Origin: Deltaproteobacteria bacterium
Lineage (GTDB): Bacteria > Desulfobacterota > Desulfarculia > Adiutricales > Adiutricaceae
Direction of reading: 5' to 3'
Assembly: GCA_031264185.1 (NCBI GenBank)
Contig: JAISEL010000040.1
Span: forward strand, 1 to 46,369
Length of the DNA stretch: 46,369 bases
Of this stretch, positions 15,487-45,620 are shown in pieces. Position 1 is the stretch's first letter, and every line of letters starts with the position of its first letter. Under the pieces are notes generated by a model. The model made no database searches. It saw only the letters and a list, made by a program, of their open reading frames with translations, and had not been told where the DNA came from. Position numbers and translations under genes: made by a program.

Positions 15487-17840
<2,354 letters not shown>

Positions 17841-17933
17841 TAAATTCCCCTTTAACGGGCGCTTTGGGTTTTATCCCTAAAAAAAATAAAGCTAAGAATA
17901 AAAGACCGAAAAAGGAAAAAGCTGCCAGCCGGC

Positions 17934-19448
17934 TCACTGGGGCGGCTGGTAGATGGTGGCGAACTCATCTAAAGCCGCTTTGATCCTGGTGTCTAAATCA
18001 TCGGAAATGTCTTTTTGGGTCTTGAGCTCGTCCAGAATTGTCTGGTAGCGGGATTCCAGAAACTCAAAAAGTTTGGCCTCATAATCCTGAACCGCCTGGA
18101 CAGGATAGCGGTCTAAGTAGCCCCGGGTGCCGGCAAAGAGACTTAAGACTTCCTTTTCGGCCGACATGGGCTGAAACTGCGCCTGTTTAAGTAACTCCAC
18201 CATGCGCTGGCCTCGGTTAATCTGGTTTAAAGTGGCTTTATCCAGATCCGAACCGAACTGGGCAAAGGACTCCAGTTCCCGGAACTGAGCCAGATCAAGA
18301 CGCAGAGTACCGGCCACTTTCTTCATGGCCTTAGTCTGGGCCGCCCCGCCTACCCGGCTGACCGAAATTCCCACGTTAATTGCCGGACGAACCCCGGAGA
18401 AGAAAAGGTTTGGCTCCAAAAAAACCTGGCCGTCGGTAATGGAAATAACATTGGTGGGAATAAAGGCCGAAACGTCACCGGCCTGGGTCTCAATGACCGG
18501 CAGAGCGGTCAGGGAACCGGCCCCCAAATCGTCGTTAAGCTTGGCCGCCCTCTCCAGTAACCGGGAGTGGTTGTAGAAAATATCTCCGGGATAAGCTTCC
18601 CGGCCCGGCGGACGGCGAAGCAGCAGGGACACTTCCCGGTACGCCACAGCCTGTTTGGAGAGATCGTCGTAAATAATCAGAGCATGACGGCCCCGGTCGC
18701 GGTAATACTCACCCATGGAGGCCCCGGCGTAGGGAGCTATATACTGAAGAGGAGCCGGATCGGAGGCGTTAGCGGCCACGATGACGGTGTAGTCCAAAGC
18801 CCCGTGTTTTTCCAGATTATCGACCACCTGAGCCACAGTCGATTTCTTCTGGCCGATGGCCACGTAGATACAGATTACATCCTGGCCTTTTTGGTTAATG
18901 ATGGCATCCACGCAGATGGCGGTTTTGCCGATCTGGCGGTCACCGATAATCAGTTCCCGCTGACCCCGGCCGATGGGAGTCATGGCATCAATGGCCTTAA
19001 TGCCGGTATACATCGGCTCATGAACGCCTTTGCGGCTGATGATACCCGGCGCCACCACCTCAATTCTGGAAAAATCCGTGGCCTCTATGGGGCCTTTGCC
19101 GTCTAAAGGCTGGCCGACCGAGTCCACGACCCTGCCCAGAAGAGCGTCGCCCACCGGCACCTGGGCAATACGGCCTGTTCTTTTAACCACATCACCTTCT
19201 TTAATGTGAGCCACATCACCCAGAACGGCCACACCCACATGGTCAGTTTCCAGGTTTAAGACCATGCCTAAAATGCCGCCAGGGAACTCCAAAAGCTCCA
19301 TGGCCATGGCCTTTTCCACCCCGTAAACCAGGGCCACGCCGTCACCAACCGAAAGGACTGTCCCGGTCTCAGCCAGTTCAATCTGCTGACCGAAGTCCTT
19401 GATTTGTGATTTTATGATTTCACTGATTTCTTCCGCTCTGATGGCCAT
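17934..19448 (-). CDS. atpA: F1 ATP synthase alpha subunit
   Basis: 504 residues, normal length. Non-catalytic nucleotide-binding subunit of the F1 hexamer. Walker A reads GDRQIGKTA (usually GDRQTGKT), followed by the [17 protein letters not shown] segment with Walker B and the signature [24 protein letters not shown]. The N-terminus ([16 protein letters not shown]) is canonical. There are about 93 bases between it and atpG and again to atpH, looser spacing than usual for this operon. Confidence 0.97.
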
Positions 19449-31793: not shown

Positions 31794-32891
31794 CTATCCA
31801 CTCAGACGCTCAAAGCGGGAGTAGCCGCTGGACCCGCTGTTAAGATCCAACTGCAGAAGGAAATCCAGGTAAAAATCATTGAGGTAAAATTGGTAGCTGT
31901 TCAGATAATGAGACCGCAAAATATGGCGGAGTCTGGGCTGCAGCAGATCAGGGTAAACTAGCTCGGCCAGCCAGCGGTAAGCTCCGGGGATATTGTCCAG
32001 ATCATAAGTGTAGCCGTTTAAATCAGTGATATTTGTATAGACCCGTCGGCGCCTTACCGCTTCAAGTCCTTGCCAGCGTGGATCGTTTAAAAAAACTTCG
32101 GCCGTGCCAACTCTTAAAATAATCAAATCGGGATTCATGGACAAAATACGCTCAACGTCACTTTCCCTGCCGGTTGCAACCAATCCGGAAGAGATATCAA
32201 TGAGGCCTAGTCTTGAATCGGCCATTCCAGAACCCCAAAGACGGGTCCAATCGCCGTCAGGACATACCATAGACAGAGCCCGAGGCCGTCTCTTCGCAGG
32301 AGGCAAGACTCCTGTCAGCTCAATTTCCACCCCGGACTCCACCCAGGACATCTCCCTTTTGAAAAGCTCAATAATTATTTCCCCCTGCCCGGACTGATCA
32401 GCTATATCGTTCAGAACCCTGGTCATAGAGAACATGGGATCATCCGCACCCAAGGATCTACCGACGGGCATGAGGGACGGAGCGGCCAGACCGAAGCGTC
32501 TGACCTCCGAGTGAGCCAGATAGACGTAGCCTCGGTCATTAGCCAAAATTGATTCCAGATCATTGGGAAAAGCCCCTGGATTAAGGCCAGGGTAAATATA
32601 GTAGATAAAACCTAGTCTTTCGGTCGGCCAACTGCGGCTTGAACCGACTTTGGCCAAAGCTTCAGGTCTGTGAGTTTTTTGGAGTACGTCAAAAAGATAC
32701 CAGCCTGGGATGAAACCTTGGAAAGGCTGAGGAATGAACACCTTTTCACCCATCGCATCGGTAATAATTCTGAATTGAACAGGTTTCGGAAAAACCGGTG
32801 CAGGCCGGAAAAGGGTCAGAGCCAGAAAACCAACAGCCGCAAAAGGGCACAGCCAAATAAATTCTCTAAAAAATCGGTAAAAAAGAAACAT
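31794..32891 (-). CDS. Membrane-anchored periplasmic binding protein, B type (type III SBP fold)
   Basis: 365 residues. One N-terminal membrane helix (FIWLCPFAAVGFLALTLF) without a signal peptidase site, so the protein is probably anchored facing the periplasm. The C-lobe carries the class III (FepB/BtuF-like) pattern: LVATGRESDVERILSMNPDLIILRVG, then DPRWQGLEAVRRRRVYTNI and a C-terminal WLAELVYPDLLQPRLRHILRSHY region. The N-lobe is divergent and contains LESILANDRGYVYL. It would pass a chelate to FecCD-type permeases. It lies 11 bases after its A-type partner, with AGGA before the ATG. It is the intact counterpart of the broken gene at 42326-43433. Confidence 0.85.
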   Translation of the reverse strand: MFLFYRFFREFIWLCPFAAVGFLALTLFRPAPVFPKPVQFRIITDAMGEKVFIPQPFQGFIPGWYLFDVLQKTHRPEALAKVGSSRSWPTERLGFIYYIYPGLNPGAFPNDLESILANDRGYVYLAHSEVRRFGLAAPSLMPVGRSLGADDPMFSMTRVLNDIADQSGQGEIIIELFKREMSWVESGVEIELTGVLPPAKRRPRALSMVCPDGDWTRLWGSGMADSRLGLIDISSGLVATGRESDVERILSMNPDLIILRVGTAEVFLNDPRWQGLEAVRRRRVYTNITDLNGYTYDLDNIPGAYRWLAELVYPDLLQPRLRHILRSHYLNSYQFYLNDFYLDFLLQLDLNSGSSGYSRFERLSG

Positions 32892-32902
32892 TATGTCCTG
32901 TT

Positions 32903-34021
32903 TTACTTAATATAATACAAATTTCGGTCAAAACGATCGTAATTGACCGAAAAACGATTTTCATCAAGCCTCAAGAGCCAATCCAGTTCTTCATCTTTAA
33001 AGCGATAGCCATAGTTATTTTCATAGTGCTCACGAATAAGGGTCCGTAATTTTGGTTCAAGACGGTCTGGATAGGCCAACTCGGCCAGCCAGCGAAACCA
33101 CAAAGGTACTGTGTCCAAATCAAAGGTATAATGGTGAAGCCTCCCTATACTTCCGTAGACTTTTTTTTCCTGAACAGCCCTAAGCCCGCGCCAGCGCGGG
33201 TCCTGCATAAAACGCAGGGCGTCGCCCACGTATAAAATGATCATGTCTGGATCCATGGCCAAAATTCTTTCCGCCTCCGAGCCTCTACCAAGGGCCATAA
33301 GGCCGTCGGCTGCGTTCCTGAAACCCAGTCGTTGGTCCAAGTCGTGACCACCCCAAAGACGTGTCCAATCATCGTGGGAATAAACCAAAGTCACAACACG
33401 GGGTCGTTGAACCTCAGTTTCCAGTCGGAGTTCTCCAAGAAGATTGGATATATTCAGATGATAGCCGGACATAAAGGTCCGGCCTTGATCCGGTTTATTG
33501 ATAAGTCTGTTGAGACAAAGGGTCTGTCTGGAAATATAATCGTCCGGGTCGGGCACCGTAATCCGAGGACTGCAGGTCACGGCATATAGTCCAAAACGCT
33601 TCAAGTCCAGGTCAAAATATACATAGCCCCGATCATGGGCCAAAACAGATTCCAGGTCGGTTGGAAAATCCCACATTTTGGGGTCACGGACCAACAACGG
33701 GTAAAACCAGAAGATTAATTCACCATCACCGTATCTGGGCCGATTTTTCGGACCGCCAATCTTAGCCAGCATATCGGAAGCATGAGTTTTTTGCAAAAAA
33801 TCTAATCCGCCGACCACTCCCAGGAAAGGCTCCGGTACGGGGGTCTCATTCTCTTCGACGTCCAAAATTATACGAATTTGCCTTGGATCAGGCTGGGGAA
33901 ACTCGGGAGCGGACCTTAGAAGGACCATGGAGAGAAAGACCATGGCGGTAAAAGGCAAGAGCCAGAAAAACTCTCCAGCCACCTTCTTCCGGAATAGAAT
34001 TATGATTGAAACATTATTCAT
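32903..34021 (-). CDS. Membrane-anchored periplasmic binding protein, A type (type III SBP fold)
   Basis: 372 residues, same plan as the B type: one N-terminal anchor (FFWLLPFTAMVFLSMVLL), then APEFPQPDP. The class III C-lobe has LMALGRGSEAERILAMDPDMIILYVG and DPRWRGLRAVQEKKVYGSI, and the C-terminus WLAELAYPDRLEPKL...EHYENNYGYRFKDEELDWLLRL closely follows the 'YGY-x-L-x-DEEL-x-x-L' ending of iron-chelate-type binding proteins. Near-identical in plan to the protein at 43430-44548. It is separated from exbD by about 300 bases with no clear terminator. Confidence 0.87.
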   Translation of the reverse strand: MNNVSIIILFRKKVAGEFFWLLPFTAMVFLSMVLLRSAPEFPQPDPRQIRIILDVEENETPVPEPFLGVVGGLDFLQKTHASDMLAKIGGPKNRPRYGDGELIFWFYPLLVRDPKMWDFPTDLESVLAHDRGYVYFDLDLKRFGLYAVTCSPRITVPDPDDYISRQTLCLNRLINKPDQGRTFMSGYHLNISNLLGELRLETEVQRPRVVTLVYSHDDWTRLWGGHDLDQRLGFRNAADGLMALGRGSEAERILAMDPDMIILYVGDALRFMQDPRWRGLRAVQEKKVYGSIGRLHHYTFDLDTVPLWFRWLAELAYPDRLEPKLRTLIREHYENNYGYRFKDEELDWLLRLDENRFSVNYDRFDRNLYYIK

Positions 34022-34328: not shown

Positions 34329-34772
34329 TCACTGATCGGCTGTCCCGGAAGTCGACTGCGGTTTAACGTCCGTAACCAATGTAACTCTGGCAAATCCGGC
34401 TTTGCCCAGTTCAGCCATTAAATCCATCATTTCACCGTATTTGACCTCAATATCGACTCGTACATGAGCTTCGCCGCTGGTGGAAGCTTTAGCCAAAGTC
34501 TGAAAGTAATAATGGCGATTACGTTCGGTAATATCCTCTTTATCAACATAGATTCGGTGATGTGCATCCAAAGTAACTATGACGGGGCTTTCTGGTTTTG
34601 ACATATTCTCACCGCTACTTTTCGGCAGGTTGACTTGAACCCCACCCAGCATCAAAGGTGCAGTCACCATAAAAATGATAAGTAATACCAGCATTATATC
34701 AATAAAGGGTGTGACGTTGATATCCGACATAGGTAACAAATCATCAGCTCCCAAAAGAAGATCATTATCCAT
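34329..34772 (-). CDS. exbD: Biopolymer transport protein ExbD/TolR
   Basis: 147 residues. Single membrane helix near the N-terminus with the proton-path Asp: MSDINVTPFIDIMLVLLIIFMVTAPLM (Asp in FIDIMLVLL). The periplasmic domain ends ELGKAGFARVTLVTDVKPQ. Together with ExbB it forms the proton-driven motor for TonB. It overlaps the end of exbB by 8 bases, so the two are translationally coupled. Confidence 0.95.
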   Translation of the reverse strand: MDNDLLLGADDLLPMSDINVTPFIDIMLVLLIIFMVTAPLMLGGVQVNLPKSSGENMSKPESPVIVTLDAHHRIYVDKEDITERNRHYYFQTLAKASTSGEAHVRVDIEVKYGEMMDLMAELGKAGFARVTLVTDVKPQSTSGTADQ

Positions 34773-35913
34773 GCTGATTCGCCTCTTTTTCTATGTCTTC
34801 TAGATTACCATAGTGAAGCCGAGCCAAGTGGTTGCCAACCAAACTCAGAGCAGTCACGCCCTCCAAAGTTATCTCTTTAATGGAACTGGTGATTTTATTG
34901 TAACCGATAACCGCCGGTATGGCCGCAACTAATCCCATGGCTGTAGCAAACAAAGCCTCGGCAATACCGGGCGCTACGACAGCTAAAGTAGTTTCGCCTG
35001 ATGCGGCAATTCCAATAAAGCTGTGCATAATACCCCAAACCGTTCCGAATAATCCAACAAATGGGCTGACCGATCCGATGGTTGCCAAAATCAATGACCG
35101 ACGGCCCAGGCGGCGCATTATGGTAGACAAAACAGTCTTCATGGCTTTTTCCACGCGTTCCCGGAAATCAGCCCGGCACTCTCTGCCCACCGAGTCGGTA
35201 CTTTCAACCATTCCGCTCTTGACTATTGAACGGGTCATCGGAGGAATGTCTTCCAGATTAATTTCACTTTGCAGATCAATGGCCGCCTGTTTAAAGCGGT
35301 TCATTGACCTAAAAGCCCGGTTCAAAATGAACAATTTTTCTAAGATTACCATCCAGGTGGCCATTGAAGCCAATAATAGAATTATCATTACTCCCTGAAC
35401 TATAGGATCGGCACCCAAAAACATGTCCTTAATCGACATTTCACTAATAGGTGGAGAAGATATTCCAACAGCAGAAGTCAAAGTCTGAACGCCTTCAGCC
35501 GACAGGCTCTGAGGTGTTTGAACCAGGCCGGACTTGTCGGCCAGACTGCCCATGGGCTGAACAATATCTGTTTTCATTGGCGAGGCCTGAGTCCCTCCCG
35601 AGTCTGTTAAAGTATCTGGAGGTAACTTGGGATCTTCCGAGGTGATGTTATTAAGAGCGGCTGGCCCGTCAGCTGAGGTCTGGCTGGCAGGTAAAGACAG
35701 ATTACCTCCGGATAAAATCGCAACCTCAGAATCTGTTATGGGTGCATCAAAGTTATCAGAGTCACCGGATTCAGCGCTTAAAGGTACTGCCGTCATCAGT
35801 GAAGATGAAGTCTCGTCTGGCGCGGATGGTTCAGGAGCAGGATTCGAACCAGTTAAAGATTGTTGCGTTAAATTAGAAGACTGCTGGTATTGGGCAATCA
35901 TAATCACACTCAT
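34765..35913 (-). CDS. exbB: ExbB/MotA/TolQ-family proton channel with long N-terminal extension
   Basis: 382 residues from the ATG at 35913, which follows GGAGGATATA at ideal spacing (the frame stays open 32 codons further up). The C-terminal 210 residues are a standard ExbB: GVMIILLLASMATWMVILEKLF, then LILATIGSVSPFVGLFGTVWGIMHSF and TTLAVVAPGIAEALFATAMGLVAAIPAVIGYNK. The first about 165 residues are a Ser/Pro/Thr/Asp-rich low-complexity region, mostly without hydrophobic segments, which is unusual. It would lie on the periplasmic side if topology is normal. Partner of ExbD and TonB in the same operon. Confidence 0.93.
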   Translation of the reverse strand: MSVIMIAQYQQSSNLTQQSLTGSNPAPEPSAPDETSSSLMTAVPLSAESGDSDNFDAPITDSEVAILSGGNLSLPASQTSADGPAALNNITSEDPKLPPDTLTDSGGTQASPMKTDIVQPMGSLADKSGLVQTPQSLSAEGVQTLTSAVGISSPPISEMSIKDMFLGADPIVQGVMIILLLASMATWMVILEKLFILNRAFRSMNRFKQAAIDLQSEINLEDIPPMTRSIVKSGMVESTDSVGRECRADFRERVEKAMKTVLSTIMRRLGRRSLILATIGSVSPFVGLFGTVWGIMHSFIGIAASGETTLAVVAPGIAEALFATAMGLVAAIPAVIGYNKITSSIKEITLEGVTALSLVGNHLARLHYGNLEDIEKEANQHG

Positions 35914-36010
35914 TATATCCTCCAAAGCCACTGAAAAGAAGGCATAACAGAAATATTTCAAGTAAACCGGGCAGACATAAAATTCGGAATATTTGAAAAG
36001 CATGAACAAC

Positions 36011-36829
36011 TCATTTTAAAGAAAAGACGACCGGGACGGTCATGTTAAGGTTATTACGGTTCAATTCTGGCGGAATAGCCGGTACGGGGGAAACTCGCTT
36101 CAATAGAGCCAGTGCTTCATTGTCTAAAGCTGAGTATCCAGAACTTTGAACCAGCCGTGAAGAAATCACTTGACCTTGTCTGTCCACAGTAAAATTGACC
36201 TTCACCTGACCTACCATCCCTTGGGATTTGGCCTCTGGTGGATATTTTTTGTATAAGCTCAGTTTTCGCTGAATTTGGGACATATAGGCATTCAATAAAT
36301 TTGGATTCCCGCGACCCTGACCTCCTCCTGTTCCGCCTCGGCCTGATTCATCATTACCTCCGGCGGTTTGGGAATCACCAAAAGCTTCCACTGATCCTGA
36401 CCTAAAGGCTTGGGCTTGTTGGGTGTCTTTGGATTTTTCCTTGGTTTTATTCTCATTGACCGGAATATTTTTCGGTTTAGGGGCCGCCTTTGGCGAGGTG
36501 CTTTCTATAACCGCTGAAGTTTCATCAGTTTCTGGCTCCGGTTCTGTCTCTGGCCTGGACAAAACTTCAGCCTGAGCAGGCAAAAAAGTCTCCTCCATAA
36601 TCACGTCATTGTCACTGGCCCCGCCGATACCGCCTTTGGGGTCATAATAGGCAAAATCGGCTCTGATCGTGGGTAACGAACTAAAAGACTCATCAACGTC
36701 ATTAGTCATAACCATCACAGATATTACGGCTAAATGAATTATGATTGTAGCAATAAATGCAACACTCAGAATTATTTTTTCAAAGATTTCTGGATGCGGA
36801 TATAAAATGGCTTGCGCTAATGACGACAT
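36011..36829 (-). CDS. tonB: Energy transducer TonB
   Basis: 272 residues. N-terminal membrane helix (KIILSVAFIATIIIHLAVISVMV) including the His expected in TonB anchors. An acidic then Pro/Lys-rich spacer follows (PETEPEPETDETS, PKAAPKPKNIPVNENKTKEK), then a Gly-rich stretch and the C-terminal TonB domain: LYKKYPPEAKSQGMVGQVKVNFTVDRQGQV, VQSSGYSALDNEALALLKRVSPVPAIPPEL. It carries energy from ExbBD to the outer-membrane receptor encoded just upstream. The ribosome-binding site is weak. Confidence 0.94.
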   Translation of the reverse strand: MSSLAQAILYPHPEIFEKIILSVAFIATIIIHLAVISVMVMTNDVDESFSSLPTIRADFAYYDPKGGIGGASDNDVIMEETFLPAQAEVLSRPETEPEPETDETSAVIESTSPKAAPKPKNIPVNENKTKEKSKDTQQAQAFRSGSVEAFGDSQTAGGNDESGRGGTGGGQGRGNPNLLNAYMSQIQRKLSLYKKYPPEAKSQGMVGQVKVNFTVDRQGQVISSRLVQSSGYSALDNEALALLKRVSPVPAIPPELNRNNLNMTVPVVFSLK

Positions 36830-36899: not shown

Positions 36900-39266
36900 T
36901 TAAAACTCAAATGAAGTAAAAAACGTGTAGTTAATAGGCGCACCAATTCTCCCGCCAGTGCCGGTATAGTATCGTTTATCAGTCACATTCTGAACATAAA
37001 AATTGAATGTGGTTTTCACGCCTTTGAGTTCAGTTTCATATCTGGCTCCAGCATCATAAACTGTATGCCCACCCATAACCCAGTCGTCTTCAGGCTCAAG
37101 TGAGGCGTGCTGTTCTCCGGTGTAATAGGCGCCGCCGGTGAGAAACAGACCATCCACCCATGGGAATTGATATTCAAAATATAATTTACCTATGTATTTT
37201 GGCACGCCGGAAGGAGTCATGCCCTCATGCTGTTTGCTCTCAGGGGCAGCATCTCTTATTTTGGCGTCAATCCAGGTCCAACCGCCCACCAGGGTCAATC
37301 GGTCTGTCAGTTTACCTGAAAAGGTCATATCAATGCCCTGATGAATTTGGCGTCCATCCGTCAACCAAGTAATAGTCCTAGCGTCAAAGTCATTAAAGTC
37401 GAAGGAATTAACCTTGTTCAAATAGTAGTAGGCGACTGTAACCAGAAAACTGTCGTTGAAAGTCCACTTGACGCCCCCCTCGTATGAGTAGCTTTCGGTT
37501 GGGGCCGGCTGATATCTGGCATTCGAATACGGCCAAATTTGCCAGCCTGCTCCGGGAACACTTACCCACCCTTCAATGGGAACTTCGTCTAACAGCTGCG
37601 TCAACTGCTGAATGTAGGTGGCGTAAAGAGTGACGCTTTTTGTCGGTTTATATTGGAGCGAATAAGTCGGAGTCCACTTTGCCTGATAATTGCTCTCTGA
37701 GTCAATTTCATCTATATAAATTGGCATGGTCTCCGTACCACTGGGATGGGTTGGGTTCAGCACTTGAATTGACTTATATCTGCGCCAGAAAACTTTGGTA
37801 TAATTAAAGCCAATAAAAGCAGTCCAATGATCTCCCAGATCCATTTTATCTCCGATGACTATATCGCGTGTATATCCTTCACCGCTCTTTGTGAAAATTT
37901 TGTGCGTTCGCCTCAGAAGCTCGTTAATTTCAGCAGTTGGCCTAGGAATTCTGATCTGACCAACAGGGATATAGTTGGCGTAAGAGAGGTCGTCCGGCAG
38001 GTAGAACTGTTGATTTTCTGCAGGCGCCGCATATGTCTTGTTCCAATCAATGCTGTAGCCCAGAACTATTTTGTGCTTCATCCATGACTTGTCAAAGATC
38101 AGATCAGTATAGATATTGAGCCCTTCGAGATATCTCAAGCCCATATTCCCTGCCCGAATGGCAAAAGACCGATAAGCAGGATCGTAGTCAGGGTTTAAGT
38201 ACATATTCATGTCATCCGCAGCCCCGCGAATATGAGTTGGATTAAATTTATGCCATTTATAAGAAGCACGTAAGGCAATGAAATCAAAAGGATTCCATTT
38301 TAAATTGACGCCGTAGGTGGTGGTGTCAGTTTGCCGATAGGTCCAGTCCTGACCATAAGCTATATGGCTGTTCGGAGGACTGATATAATAGTTCTTGCTA
38401 AGCCCAACGCCGCCTGTATCACCATTTGCCCGGTCTGAATTAAAGGTGGCATCGAATTGCAGGAGAAGAGTATCTGTTATATGCCAGTCAAATGCTCCGC
38501 TGATGCCCTTATATCTTGCTCTTAGGCCATCAATGGCCGTTTCGCCGTCTGAATACTGAAAATTTATCCTATAGCCGAATTTGCCGCCCAAAATAGGTCC
38601 GCCAAAGTCGCCGGTTACGTAATATTGCTGACCGCCATAGTTGCCGATAGTTATCCTATTCAAAAAATAATCTGTCGGGCGTTTGGTAACGAAATTAACT
38701 GTTCCCCCGATTTCATCGCTCACTCCGCTAAAAAAACTGTCAAAACCGGATATCATTTCGACTCTGTCATAATTATACAGAGAGGCAATACTGTAATCGG
38801 AAGATTTGAAACCGTCAACTGTGTAGTTGGTAATGAAGCCTCTGGAGTACATTCTCTGAACTCCCGAATCATGCCGGCCGCCTCCGGCACCACCGGTGTC
38901 ATACACACCTGGCAGCACTTTAATGAGCCTTTCAATTGAATCATTGGCTGTGTTTTCCATCATTTCCGATGATACAGTCATCATAGTGTAGGGTGTGTCC
39001 TGAGCCCGTATGTCACCCCACGGACCAAGAGATTCAACTGTGTCCATCATATAGCCGACCTCGGCGTTGCCTTTCATTTCCTTGGCATCTTGGACCTGAA
39101 CTGGGTTGAGTTCAACAGTCTCATCATCACTGTACTGTCTGTCCTGATCGCTGTCTTCTTGAGCCAAAATCGGTGTCTTCGCTGCCAATGTCAGGGTAAA
39201 GATAAACGCCAAAGCCGCCGAAATTATCAGCAGCCAAGATTTGTTTTTTAAAATCGCTGTCATCAT
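36900..39266 (-). CDS. TonB-dependent outer-membrane receptor (siderophore-receptor-like)
   Basis: 788 residues. Signal peptide to about residue 36 (ending PILAQ). A candidate TonB box is in ETVELNPVQVQDA (about 48-60). The plug domain contains TPYTMMTVSSEMMENTANDSIERLIKVLPGVY and RVEMISGFDSFFSGVSDEIGGTVNFVTKRPT, and the beta-barrel ends on TFFTSFEF with the terminal Phe. The pattern resembles FhuA/FoxA-type siderophore receptors more than BtuB, but ligand specificity cannot be read. An ATG one codon later is possible. It lies 65 bases after the ATPase gene and 70 before tonB. Confidence 0.94.
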   Translation of the reverse strand: MMTAILKNKSWLLIISAALAFIFTLTLAAKTPILAQEDSDQDRQYSDDETVELNPVQVQDAKEMKGNAEVGYMMDTVESLGPWGDIRAQDTPYTMMTVSSEMMENTANDSIERLIKVLPGVYDTGGAGGGRHDSGVQRMYSRGFITNYTVDGFKSSDYSIASLYNYDRVEMISGFDSFFSGVSDEIGGTVNFVTKRPTDYFLNRITIGNYGGQQYYVTGDFGGPILGGKFGYRINFQYSDGETAIDGLRARYKGISGAFDWHITDTLLLQFDATFNSDRANGDTGGVGLSKNYYISPPNSHIAYGQDWTYRQTDTTTYGVNLKWNPFDFIALRASYKWHKFNPTHIRGAADDMNMYLNPDYDPAYRSFAIRAGNMGLRYLEGLNIYTDLIFDKSWMKHKIVLGYSIDWNKTYAAPAENQQFYLPDDLSYANYIPVGQIRIPRPTAEINELLRRTHKIFTKSGEGYTRDIVIGDKMDLGDHWTAFIGFNYTKVFWRRYKSIQVLNPTHPSGTETMPIYIDEIDSESNYQAKWTPTYSLQYKPTKSVTLYATYIQQLTQLLDEVPIEGWVSVPGAGWQIWPYSNARYQPAPTESYSYEGGVKWTFNDSFLVTVAYYYLNKVNSFDFNDFDARTITWLTDGRQIHQGIDMTFSGKLTDRLTLVGGWTWIDAKIRDAAPESKQHEGMTPSGVPKYIGKLYFEYQFPWVDGLFLTGGAYYTGEQHASLEPEDDWVMGGHTVYDAGARYETELKGVKTTFNFYVQNVTDKRYYTGTGGRIGAPINYTFFTSFEF

Positions 39267-39331: not shown

Positions 39332-40111
39332 TTAAGCCATACGATGGTCCTCTTTAGGCCGGAAGACTGGCACCAAAGTTTCGATGGCCTGCTCTTCGAA
39401 TTCAAAAGACACCTTCTTAAGCGGCAGGTTGTAGAGCCTAAAAAGGTTACTTTCTATCAACACCTCATCCACCTGCCCGGCAGCGTAATCACTTCCCCCA
39501 AGCATCAAAAGAGCTTGATCCGCTACGGCGTAGGCGTGATGAGGGTGATGGGTAGAAAAGATTACTGTCAGATTTTCCCGACGGGCCAGCCGATCGATCC
39601 ATTCCAGGATGGCGTTTTGATTTTTCAGGTCCAAGGCGGATGTCGGTTCGTCCAGTATCAGAATGTCAGCCTCTGCCACCAGAGCACGGGCAAAAATCAC
39701 CAATTGCCGCTGACCCCCTGACATTTCATGGAAAGGCCTATTGGCCAGAGACGCCAAACCAACTCTCTCCAAAGCTTTTAGAGCCATCTCTTCATCAGCG
39801 GATGTCGGCTGAGAAAACAGTCCCACTTTTTTCGCTCTTCCCATCAGGACCATGTCCAGGGCAGAGTAATCGAAAGCCACCTGAAACAGCTGAGGCACGA
39901 AGGCGACATGTCCATTGACGCTCACCGATCCTTCGGTCTGGGCAAGTGCCCCCAGCAAAATTTTTAACAAAGTCGTCTTACCGCATCCGTTGGGACCAAG
40001 GAGAGCCAGAATCTGACCTCGGCTGACCTGACTTTGGTAGTTACGGAAAATCCATTTATCCGGCAGATAGGAATGACCTAAGCCGCTGAAGGAAAAATCG
40101 CCTGTTTTCAT
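39332..40111 (-). CDS. FecE/BtuD-type ABC transporter ATPase
   Basis: 259 residues from the ATG at 40111 (MKTGDFSFSGLGHSYLPDKW), which has GGAG upstream and starts 3 bases after the permease stop. The frame is open 48 codons further up inside the permease gene, but that is not needed. Walker A LLGPNGCGKTT, signature MSGGQRQLV, Walker B DILILDEPTSALD, then the H-loop histidine in VIFSTHHPHHA. It drives the two FecCD permeases. It is the only intact copy; the paralogue at 29943-30620 is dead. Confidence 0.95.
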   Translation of the reverse strand: MKTGDFSFSGLGHSYLPDKWIFRNYQSQVSRGQILALLGPNGCGKTTLLKILLGALAQTEGSVSVNGHVAFVPQLFQVAFDYSALDMVLMGRAKKVGLFSQPTSADEEMALKALERVGLASLANRPFHEMSGGQRQLVIFARALVAEADILILDEPTSALDLKNQNAILEWIDRLARRENLTVIFSTHHPHHAYAVADQALLMLGGSDYAAGQVDEVLIESNLFRLYNLPLKKVSFEFEEQAIETLVPVFRPKEDHRMA

Positions 40112-40113
40112 TA

Positions 40114-41196
40114 TTAACTCCAACCTCTGCTTCTGCATTTCCAGAAAAGAAAACAGATAAAAGGAGTGCCCAGGAAACCCGACAGCACCCCTACCGGAAT
40201 CTCGCTCCATATAACTGTCCTGGTCAAATTGTCCAGGCCCAGCACCAACAGACACCCTAATAGGGCTGAAACCGGCATTAGACGGCGGTGGTCAGGTCCT
40301 ACCAGCATCCGGGCGCAATGTGGAATGATTAGTCCGACCCAGCCCACTACACCGCTCACGGCCACCTGGACGGCCACCATGATTGAGACGACCAGGATCA
40401 AAATCCAGCGCAACGTTCCCACGTCCAACCCCAGGGATTTCGCATCCAAATCGCCAAGAGACAGCAGGTTTAGACGCCAGCGCAAGGCCATAAGTAAAAT
40501 CCCACCAGCGGTGGTAGTCAATATAATGGTCCAGGCCTTGGTTGGATCTGCTCCCCGAAAAGTACCCAAAAGCCAATAGACTAAATTGGGTCCAGCGTAT
40601 CCACCTCCGATGTGCAGGATCAGACCCACACAGGCCATAAAAAATGCTCCAACAAAAAAACCGGCTAAAATCAGCGGCAGTCCATCGGACTTTCCACCTA
40701 CGATCCTGGCCAGAAACAAAGTGCAGAGCATGGCCCCCACTCCGCCAATGGAAGCAAGAGTGACTATGCCCAAAGTGGGAAGTGCCAGCTTATAGGCCAG
40801 AGCTCCACCGAAAGCGGCTCCTGAGGATACCCCAATCAAGTCCGGTCCCACCAGAGGATTACGATACATACCCTGAAGGGCAGTACCGCTCATACCCAAG
40901 GTAATGCCGGCAAAAACGGCAACCATGATGCGGGGAGGTCGGATCAGAGTCACCACAGTGATCTCGCGCAAATCCCAGGCTGGGGAATCGACCCAGGAGA
41001 ACGGCAATATGATATCCAGCAAAATGTCCAGCGGCCGCCTCAGCGGCATGGGATAAGCTCCGACAAACATAGAGCCCATAACAGCCACAACGACAACCAA
41101 AGCCAGGAGCCATGGCCAAGCCCAGCTGCGCTGATCCAAAAAACGTTGGGTTCTATGGAATAAGGGGACAATATTTTTAAAATAAGCCTCAATCAT
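40114..41196 (-). CDS. FecCD-family ABC transporter permease (second)
   Basis: 360 residues. About ten membrane helices with family signatures: LIRPPRIMVAVFAGITLGMSGTALQGMYRNPLVGPDLIGVSSGAAFG, then LRWRLNLLSLGDLDAKSLG and the coupling region VGWVGLIIPHCARMLVGPDHRRLMPVSALLG. An N-terminal cytoplasmic tail of about 25 residues precedes the first helix. It overlaps the upstream permease by 8 bases. Two different FecCD proteins in tandem suggest a heterodimeric channel, as in FecCD or FepDG. Confidence 0.95.
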   Translation of the reverse strand: MIEAYFKNIVPLFHRTQRFLDQRSWAWPWLLALVVVVAVMGSMFVGAYPMPLRRPLDILLDIILPFSWVDSPAWDLREITVVTLIRPPRIMVAVFAGITLGMSGTALQGMYRNPLVGPDLIGVSSGAAFGGALAYKLALPTLGIVTLASIGGVGAMLCTLFLARIVGGKSDGLPLILAGFFVGAFFMACVGLILHIGGGYAGPNLVYWLLGTFRGADPTKAWTIILTTTAGGILLMALRWRLNLLSLGDLDAKSLGLDVGTLRWILILVVSIMVAVQVAVSGVVGWVGLIIPHCARMLVGPDHRRLMPVSALLGCLLVLGLDNLTRTVIWSEIPVGVLSGFLGTPFICFLFWKCRSRGWS

Positions 41197-42304
41197 TGAT
41201 CCAGCCTTTGGTCTTCTTCTTCCAAAATAAAAAACAGATGAACGGAGTGCCGATAAGAGTAGTCAGCGTACCAGTGCCTACATCTGTCCGAAGAACAACT
41301 CGGGTGAAATCATCTATAAGCAGCACGAACATACCGCCCAACAATGCAGAAGCCGGTAACAGTTTCCGGTGGTCAGGGCCAACCAGCATCCTGGCGCAGT
41401 GAGGAACGACCAACCCCACCCAGCCGATGAGACCGCTGACTGAAACCTGAGCGGCGACAATCAGGGAAACCACGGCAATGATGGTAAGCCGCAAAAGGCG
41501 TACGTTGATCCCCAAAGATAAAGCGTCAGCATTACCGAGAGACAAAAGATTTATCCGCCAGCGCAGTAACATAAGGATCGATCCGCCAACCAAGGTCGGA
41601 ACAGTCAACAGCCAGACGGTCTGCGGGGTGGCCTCATTGAGGTAACCCATAACCAAGTGGCCGATTCTGGACATCTGGTGATCATCAGCCAAAAAAAGAC
41701 CAAAACATACCCCTGAAATACAAAAAGCGCCCACGAAGATGCCTGAGAGAATCAGTCCAATGCCTTCAAAGCTACGGGCCAGATGAGCCAAGCCATAGGT
41801 ACCGCCCAAAGCCAACAACCCCCCGAGAAAAGCCAAGGCCACCGTCGCCGACTCAGACCAATAAAACATGATGGCGAAAACTCCACCCAAAGCCGCTCCT
41901 GATGAAACTCCCACCAGATCCGGTCCCACCAGGGGGTTACGCATCATGCCCTGAAGAGCGGCTCCACTCATCCCCAAAGCCATACCAACTAACGTGGCCA
42001 AAAGAACCCTTGGCAATCGGATCATCTGAATAACTGCCAATTCCATAAGCGACCAAGACGACTCTGAGGGTAATGCCCAAGGTAACCCCAGGTTTACGGT
42101 TATCTCACCGGCTCTCCAAAAGCTCATGGGGTAGGCACCGATGAGAAGCGAACCGACCACCGTCCCGGCCAAGGAAATGGCCAGTAAAAGAGGCATTGCC
42201 CACTCATGGCGTCTGAAAAAATCCCGGGCTGTAGCCAATCTCTTTTTCACAAATGCCAGCAGACTGGTCACCGGCGAGGATTGGTTTTTAGTAAGTTCGA
42301 TCAT
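41189..42304 (-). CDS. FecCD-family ABC transporter permease (first)
   Basis: 371 residues, same architecture as its neighbour and clearly its paralogue: MIRLPRVLLATLVGMALGMSGAALQGMMRNPLVGPDLVGVSSGAALG, LLRWRINLLSLGNADALSLG and IGWVGLVVPHCARMLVGPDHRKLLPASALLG. The N-terminal tail (residues 1-35) is hydrophilic. It follows the broken B-type binding protein gene by about 20 bases and is transcribed with the rest of the cassette. Confidence 0.95.
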   Translation of the reverse strand: MIELTKNQSSPVTSLLAFVKKRLATARDFFRRHEWAMPLLLAISLAGTVVGSLLIGAYPMSFWRAGEITVNLGLPWALPSESSWSLMELAVIQMIRLPRVLLATLVGMALGMSGAALQGMMRNPLVGPDLVGVSSGAALGGVFAIMFYWSESATVALAFLGGLLALGGTYGLAHLARSFEGIGLILSGIFVGAFCISGVCFGLFLADDHQMSRIGHLVMGYLNEATPQTVWLLTVPTLVGGSILMLLRWRINLLSLGNADALSLGINVRLLRLTIIAVVSLIVAAQVSVSGLIGWVGLVVPHCARMLVGPDHRKLLPASALLGGMFVLLIDDFTRVVLRTDVGTGTLTTLIGTPFICFLFWKKKTKGWIND

Positions 42305-42325: not shown

Positions 42326-43433
42326 TTAGCTCTCCCTGGCAAATCGGAAGAAGCCGTTGGATTGGCGATTAATATCCAATCTCAATAGGATATCTATCTC
42401 AAAATCATTTAGGTGGAATTTATAACTGTTCTGACAATTGGTCCTTAATATCCTCCTAAGCCTCGGCTGCAAAATATCCGGACAAATTAGTTCGGCCAGC
42501 CAGCGATAGACAGATGGTTGAGTGTCAATATCTAAAACGTTGCTGTCAAGCCAGATGATATTGCTATACACTCTACGGAGTGTAACTGCCTCCAGACTTT
42601 GCCAGCGAGGATCATTTAAGAAACCATCGGGGGTACCAACTCTTAATATGATGAAATTGGGATTCATGGCTAAAATTCGTTCGGCGTCGCTTTCCCGCAC
42701 CAGGGCCATCCATTCCATATAGCAGAGATATCATTCAGCCCCATCCTGACACCGCTCATACCCGTACCCACCCACAGCCGGGTCCACTCGCCGTCTGGGC
42801 AGACCACTGATAAGGCCCGAAGTCGATGCTCCTCAACAGGCAGGACTCCGATCAGCTCAATATCGACACCGGCCTCAACCAAAAACATTTCTTGTTTATA
42901 CGCATTGATTAAGAATTCACACAGCAGGCTTTGATCAACGATCAATGATCAACAATACTGTTCAGGATCTCTGTCATGATGAACACAGTGTCCGGTTTCA
43001 AAGAGAAGACCGCAGGAGATGCCAAGCCGAAACGATCCAAATCAGAGCGGCACCAATATAGATATATCCTCAGGTCTTTAGCTAAAATCGTTTCTATGTC
43101 GTAAGAAAAGCTCTCCAGAAACAGACTTGGATAAATCCAGTTAATCAAACTTTCACTTCTGGCTGAAAAATCCTTACGAACAGCAAAATTAACCAAAGCC
43201 CCTGGGCGATGGATCTTTTGAAGAACGCCATATAATAAATATGGGCCAGGTATGATACCCTGAAAAGGTTGAGGTACGGCAACCTCATTCCCATTTGCAT
43301 CAATAATGATTTTGACATCCGGTGGCCTGGGAAACACCTGAGCAGGACTATACAGAGCAATGGATATCAAACCTATGGCCGCAAATGGCAATATCCAGAA
43401 ACAGTCACTGATAAGTAAACGAATTGAGATCAT
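42326..43433 (-). pseudogene. Frameshifted B-type binding protein, paralogue of 31794-32891
   Basis: Three overlapping open pieces together cover the whole B-type protein. Piece 1 (43433-42942) has the anchor FWILPFAAIGLISIALYSPAQVF and runs to ILNSIVDH. Piece 2 (42945-42670) has VDQSLLCEFLINAYKQEM and LSVVCPDGEWTRLW. Piece 3 (42718-42326) has LVRESDAERILAMNPNFIILRVG and DPRWQSLEAV to the end. The first break sits in GATCAACGATCAATGATCAA (about 42953-42936 region), a short tandem repeat that may have slipped. The second is near 42715. Everything else is well kept, so loss is recent, or the breaks are sequencing errors. Confidence 0.85.
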
Positions 43434-44799: not shown

Positions 44800-45260
44800 T
44801 CTGGTGTCCCACATCAATAGGTTGTTTTCGTTCAAAGCGAGAATATCCTGCTGAACACAGATGTTGCTCAATGCGCAAAAACCAATCCGATTCACCGTCT
44901 TTCAGTCTGTATCCGTAGTTTTTTCATAGTGTTCACTCGCAAATTTTCGTAATATTGGCCGAAACCTCTCCGGATAGACAAGTTCAGCCTTCATGCGCAC
45001 CATCAGAGGCACCATGTCCAAGTCAAAATAATAACAACCGAGTCTATAAACCTTTATTGTCAACAATCGAACTTAATCTTGAGCTTCTTATTCTTTGTTC
45101 ATAAATCAATAATTTGCATTATCAGGCAATTGTAGAGCGCAAAAATCCTATTCCATCATCAGTCAGTTTTTGTCAAACAAACCTCATCTGATTTCAGCTT
45201 CTGACTAGTGATGAATCCACCGGCATTGTCGATTTAAAATTATTGATGTTATCTGTTTCG
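44800..45260 (-). pseudogene. Fragment of a third A-type binding protein
   Basis: The minus strand from about 45062 reads VYRLGCYYFDLDMVPLMVRM then KAELVYPERFRPILRKFASEHYEK and, after a one-base shift, NYGYRLKDGESDWFLRIEQHLCSAGYSRFERKQ, matching the last 90 residues of the intact A-type proteins. Upstream (45240-45170) a weaker match to the GQEFITDY region survives. The anchor, N-lobe and the start of the C-lobe are missing. Confidence 0.8.
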
Positions 45261-45265
45261 TTTTA

Positions 45266-45620
<355 letters not shown>

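Follow-up and report, generated by a model that had tools for sequence, protein, structure and literature searches.

Binding proteins of iron importers

The class III binding proteins, of which BtuF, FhuD, FeuA, CeuE and YiuA are examples (PF01497), have a two-lobed fold with both docking glutamates, and their systems combine FecCD permeases with an ABC ATPase and, in the operon, a TonB receptor. In Gram-positive bacteria it is normal for binding proteins to be anchored. PiaA and other Gram-positive anchored proteins, as described in PMC3741162, are held at the membrane, have the class III fold and dock by Glu-Arg pairs, each being the single binding protein of its system in a cell without an outer membrane. 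The same source has Glu74 and Glu202 of BtuF pairing with Arg56 of BtuC and regards such pairs as indispensable for docking; for BhuUV-T, according to PMC5136619, E94 and E231 pair with R84, with a single binding protein sitting on the permease dimer. FpvDE of Pseudomonas aeruginosa is described as an importer having two binding proteins, FpvC and FpvF, both periplasmic and the former of metal-binding type (PMC6954188), and GlnPQ of Lactococcus lactis as one importer fed by two membrane-tethered binding domains that differ in specificity (PMC8025302).

The proteins considered here, A and B, are encoded in tandem in a Gram-negative bacterium of the Desulfobacterota. The window, by which we mean the whole 46,369-nucleotide stretch of DNA that was analyzed, is contig C4 of its draft genome (4.4 Mb in 166 contigs). 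A and B have in common with other class III proteins the two-lobed fold, the docking glutamates and the gene company just described, and with FpvC/FpvF-FpvDE the number of two binding proteins per ferric-siderophore importer. They differ from the class III examples in having an uncleaved-looking helix with a W-x-x-P motif where those have a signal peptide or lipid, in the S-x-G-Y-x-R-F at the end of the C-terminal tail in most members of their clade, and in their occurrence as tandem copies. In contrast to FpvC/FpvF, with one protein of metal-binding type and one of siderophore type, the paralogues A and B (44% identity) are both of one type, apparently anchored and accompanied by FecC and FecD; unlike the domains of GlnPQ, which are covalently attached to a permease for amino acids, they are separate proteins. 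The first-pass annotation of this DNA knew of no described system of such a form. FpvC/FpvF, of different make-up, is a described one as far as the account in PMC6954188 goes; term searches of open-licence papers turned up no Gram-negative TonB-linked operon with tandem class III proteins anchored by a helix. A and B modify a known kind of iron-uptake system and do not amount to a new one; they suggest that Gram-negative bacteria can tether class III binding proteins and, apparently on more than one occasion, have multiplied them in tandem for one siderophore importer.

The operon and its gene copies

Minus-strand transcription passes A2, a broken B2, FecC, FecD, the ATPase, a TonB-dependent receptor, TonB, ExbB, ExbD, A1 and B1, in that order (Table 1). 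Siderophore receptor, FecCD permeases, ATPase and TonB-ExbB-ExbD are all present, the gene set of ferric-siderophore uptake, and by this content the operon is a TonB-dependent ferric-siderophore uptake operon whose transported ligand is a prediction; the receptor is barely over the cut-off of TIGR01783, the model for TonB-dependent siderophore receptors, with 223.8 bits against 223.5. The importer genes are not immediately adjacent to A1-B1, 307 bases separating exbD from A1, and the window importer is assumed to be the partner of this pair standing apart from it.

Table 1. Features of the operon in the window (positions in the window; all on the minus strand)
Feature	Position	Strand	Basis or remark
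A1, class III binding protein, probably inner-membrane-tethered, 372 aa	32903..34021	-	ORF, Pfam, model, alignment
A1 parts: helix 3-35; two-lobed domain from about 47; predicted docking Glu124 and Glu251	32903..34021	-	
B1, A1 paralogue (44%), diverged copy, 365 aa	31794..32891	-	ORF, alignment, model
B1 parts: helix 2-27; predicted docking Glu113 and Glu247; 6-residue insertion, 4-residue deletion	31794..32891	-	
A2, second A-type binding protein, 372 aa	43430..44548	-	open; faster-diverged (dN 0.34 to C46 A)
B2 pseudogene, B-type	42326..43433	-	two frameshifts; ORFs of 163, 91 and 130 aa
Third A-type gene, relic of C-lobe	44819..45060 (about)	-	two frames
FecC-type permease	41189..42304	-	docking arginines retained
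FecD-type permease	40114..41196	-	docking arginines retained
Importer ABC ATPase	39332..40255	-	true start probably near 40111, from relatives
TonB-dependent siderophore receptor	36900..39266	-	TIGR01783
TonB	36011..36829	-	
ExbB-type protein, long N-terminal region	34765..36009	-	named from reading sequence alone
ExbD-type protein	34329..34772	-	named from reading sequence alone

The gap of 11 bases between A1 and B1 and the ATGA overlap of the end of A2 with the start of B2 are as given in the first-pass annotation, but its two cassettes of A then B are not borne out, as B2 is broken. It aligns with B1 as three pieces in three frames, with two frameshifts, and the window contains an intact A-B pair, an A whose B is dead and an A relic, the last of which the annotation had missed. 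That the B2 frameshifts are mere sequencing error was considered and rejected: two lesions and a long branch (0.72 against 0.14 for B1) argue for real decay, though either lesion singly may still be an assembly error. A pseudogene beside the open A2, together with the A relic, shows that genes for these binding proteins were repeatedly gained and lost at this locus.

Upstream of A1 or A2 there is no Fur-type box with at least 14 of 19 matching positions; one match of 14/19, at 35899, lies within the exbB ORF and the remaining matches, of 14 or 15, are outside the operon. Sigma-70-like sites are at chance level (25 observed, 23.6 expected). A long CT dinucleotide run, read in the sequence at about 45510-45545, lies upstream of the operon, and at 15487-19448 of the window there are two neighbouring ATP synthase alpha/beta-type genes, one with a V/A-type C-terminal domain.

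Fold

AlphaFold2, supplied with 12-row alignments of the window proteins and proteins of related loci, gave models with pLDDT 83.5 (A1) and 81.5 (B1) and pTM 0.79 for each. Both have a long N-terminal helix followed by a two-lobed domain, in which a long helix connects the two alpha/beta lobes as in class III, so that the structure prediction which the annotation had proposed for A and B individually brought out the binding-protein fold in both lobes. When VIA-align was applied to the Foldseek matches, 4ovk came top for A1 (Z 24.9, rmsd 3.0, 294 residues, 48-364) and for B1 (Z 24.2, rmsd 3.6, 295 residues, 39-360), followed in either list by 3psa, 4hn9, YiuA (6b2y) and 2etv with Z of 18.5-19.5. 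A profile search against solved structures concurs, with 4ovk at E 7.9e-28 and 24 sequences at E up to 0.01.

The PF01497 scores of A1 (20.4 bits) and B1 (23.4 bits) are under the gathering cut-off of 27.5, with the match confined to the C-lobe; A2, at 27.9, is above it, 5/5 more distant clade members scanned also pass, and an NCBIfam search returned no family for A1 or B1. The recognizable class III C-lobe of the first-pass annotation is borne out by these weak matches, while its odd N-lobe was an impression from sequence: because the models and the structure-profile search match solved class III proteins, the N-lobe of A1 and B1 is, on this modeling, ordinary in shape and only its sequence is distant from the Pfam model. 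A different N-lobe fold was rejected, as the models align to class III proteins across both lobes. In the alignment DLESxLAxDRGYVY is the clade's counterpart of BtuF NLERIVALKPDLVI. Judged by their models, A and B are both complete binding proteins of class III (type II importers).

Probable membrane anchor

The N-terminal helix contains W-x-x-P in 21/21 clade members and in 0/6 rows outside the clade. The hydrophobic helix reported for A and B in the first reading is there, and A1, A2 and B1 have no match to the lipobox motif, the only two matches being LTGC in an outgroup row (C34) and VSSC in L112, where it sits upstream of the helix in a long doubtful N-terminal extension. Columns 17-36 of A1 have a mean majority fraction of 0.57 against 0.46-0.55 for blocks of the domain, i.e. 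they are equally conserved, and retention of the W, the P and the following R and P would be unexpected in a cleaved signal peptide. Motif and conservation thus speak against a cleavable signal peptide or lipobox, and A and B probably remain membrane-anchored, perhaps permanently, via the uncleaved helix.

What would link helix and domain is a short proline-rich stretch, in the A1 model about 13 residues between residue 35 and the first strand, which starts at 49. With a linker of that length the tethered domain should reach its own importer and not the outer membrane, which goes against the relay across the periplasm that had been suggested.

Tandem and single copies

C46, another contig of the same genome, has an operon headed by an intact A'-B' with ATGA overlap, followed by FecC, FecD, ATPase, receptor, ExbB, ExbD and TonB. 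Operons on C10 and C18, also of this genome, have a single such protein ahead of FecC, FecD, ATPase, receptor and TonB, and this single-protein arrangement, with ExbB-ExbD added, recurs in G014 of the same family. The nearest relatives have one binding protein with the same two permeases. A scan of a genome-contig collection gave 10 confirmed loci among 70 pattern matches, and from it and whole-genome searches 15 operons of the W-x-x-P clade were read. Tandem copies occur in 4/15 (the window, C46 and the Acidobacteriota loci L110, with two, and L077, with three), every one with two permeases. The other 11 have single copies, accompanied by two permeases in six (C10, C18, G014/L073, L072, L074 and L134), by one in four (L075, L076 of Sulfurospirillum diekertiae, L112 and L113) and by none read adjacent in L078/L117.

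The family is patchily distributed. At E up to 1e-25 it is found in 1/395 genomes of the window phylum, the window's own, and at E up to 1e-30 in 2/37 of its bacterial family; at the latter threshold the counts are 1/396 in the phylum and 1/120 in the family of the Acidobacteriota genome, and 3/55, 1/44, 5/248 and 1/26 in the families of L072, L076, L078 and L075, respectively. These genome sets overlap, and weaker matches in the L072- and L078-family searches are outside the clade or were not read further. The A-B pair was found in no other genome among the 395 of the phylum, the 37 of the family and the further families searched, at variance with its proposed conservation in Desulfobacterota; same-genus genomes are 64 to 94% complete, and so the absence of the pair there is only likely. 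A plasmid search with A1 gave only two partial matches, of 31% (Methylocystis).

Origin of the pair

Identity is 56% for A1/A2, 44% for A1/B1 and 42% for A2/B1, the first two far above chance, and the possibility that A and B are unrelated proteins was rejected, since they are sisters in the tree. The 27-row tree, whose tool marks B2, L118 and G014 for odd letter composition, has an A clade (A2,(A1,C46 A)) with support 99/97 and a B clade (B2,(B1,C46 B)) with 100/100; the two are joined at 97/93, the stem of B is 0.68 long, and they adjoin the single proteins of C10, C18 and G014 (93/95). Because the A and B subtrees mirror each other, there was one A/B duplication and the pair was later copied as a unit; the mirrored subtrees and the intact A'-B' of C46 uphold the earlier treatment of A-B as a unit. 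The two copies of L110 are sisters (100/100) and the three of L077 are in a poorly supported region, all away from A/B, a placement by which tandem multiplication occurred at least twice. In the permease tree FecC and FecD are separate groups (91/61 and 99/100, respectively), and as each includes C10, C18 and G014 the FecC/FecD split predates that of A and B.

Between A1/C46 A and B1/C46 B 85 sites are fixed differently, at which A2 has the A-state in 47 and the B-state in 11, and B2 the B-state in 41 and the A-state in 8. At those sites where C10, C18 and G014 agree, 16 match A and 8 match B. Nei-Gojobori estimates between the window and C46 are dN 0.158 and dS 0.73 for A1, 0.132 and 0.69 for B1, 0.144 and 1.47 for FecC, and 0.167 and 1.20 for FecD, while A2 and C46 A differ by dN 0.342 with dS saturated. 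Both the A and the B lineage are under purifying selection (dN/dS about 0.2). A1-B1 may be a later copy, akin to the C46 pair, that came to lie after exbD while the A2-B2 pair nearer the promoter is decaying, with dS values this large serving as a rough guide.

Docking and the probable sharing of an importer

BtuF E72 and BtuC R59 and R295 are taken by us to be docking positions of BtuF-BtuC, the reference sequences being those of the E. coli K-12 record. At the positions aligned with BtuF E72 and E202, one per lobe, 27/27 rows have Glu, counting the remains of B2. Arg stands at the counterparts of BtuC R56, R59 and R295 in 19/19 permeases, a count that omits the incomplete second permease of L072 and the permeases of L074, L114, L118, L119, L122 and L134. 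Since each of A and B carries the full docking set, each should span FecC and FecD unaided, and this predicted ability to dock alone argues against a heterodimer matched to the two permeases. The reading that we prefer, and hold to be rather probable, is that A and B, each tethered, serve as alternative binding proteins of a single ferric-siderophore importer, with B the diverged copy.

The first-pass annotation had put forward a heterodimer in which two binding proteins match two different permeases. Two permeases in 4/4 tandem operons are what such a matched pair would predict and as such tell against a shared importer, as does the separation of A1-B1 from its presumed importer. Yet 6/11 single-protein operons also have two, the divergence of FecC and FecD is older than that of A and B, the triplet L077 has just two permeases, and a lone class III protein already reaches across both. 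L122 (G018:C17, 2953-5103), from the bacterial family of the window genome, has class III proteins in tandem whose starts look like ordinary signal peptides and which come after a single FecCD permease and an ATPase, so that tandem copies require neither anchor nor two permeases; a tie between tandem number and permease number was rejected on this ground and on that of the single-protein operons. A permease-matched heterodimer is very improbable. Cooperation, as a heterodimer or by hand-over, with one protein binding the ferric siderophore and the other aiding release or transfer, would fit the copying of A-B as a unit and the strong divergence of B (its long stem and the 85 fixed differences), and has a working precedent in FpvC/FpvF as described in PMC6954188. 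It is nonetheless unlikely, with A and B both retaining all docking residues and the full two-lobed fold, with one protein in the sister operons of C10, C18 and G014, with A2 persisting next to a dead B2 though B1 could substitute, and with no reductase or FpvJ-like gene noticed in the operon.

Redundancy, with both proteins retained for dosage so that there is more tethered binding protein per importer, would be in keeping with the recent tandem copies in the Acidobacteriota genome (the L110 sisters) and the repeated appearance and loss of copies seen in the window (B2 and the A3 relic). We think it rather unlikely, given purifying selection on both lineages and the 85 fixed differences, some of them in loops expected near the cleft (e.g. 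216, 264 and 293-297, as placed by inference). A bolder proposal extends to several unrelated Gram-negative lineages: tethered tandem copies (pair, pair and triplet) on heterodimeric FecC/FecD would form a membrane-surface array in which a tethered A hands siderophore to a tethered B. This we consider quite unlikely; if true, such hand-over would be a two-step capture followed by delivery or iron release, which is not described for class III proteins.

If A and B are instead alternatives on a shared importer, the receptor would carry the ferric siderophore into the periplasm, where anchored A or B at the outer face of the inner membrane would capture it beside the importer. Either protein would then dock across the FecC/FecD pair by one glutamate per lobe, A and B doing so singly and in turn on what appears to be one shared importer, and ATP would drive transport. 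Two docking-competent tethered proteins serving one importer would resemble GlnPQ with its pair of tethered domains. The two would have arisen by duplication of one anchored protein when FecC and FecD were already distinct, A remaining conservative and B diverging, most likely with a widening of the ligand range; that A and B have different ligands is suggested by their divergence. Tandem tethered copies would be a simple route to such widening, and A/B a natural test of two tethered proteins competing or cooperating on one type II importer.

Other class III genes

More distant class III genes of the window genome (C34, C75, C135 and C49) are near a TonB receptor and one FecCD permease. Another class III tandem pair, for which no transporter gene was recognized adjacent, is at L068 (7176-8249 and 8351-9514; G000:C148). 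Radical SAM-like genes, picked out by eye from a CxxxCxxC-like motif, occur close to genes for class III binding proteins and TonB receptors of the same genome at L065 (8795-9820), L067 (4224-5240) and L063 (4408-5418).
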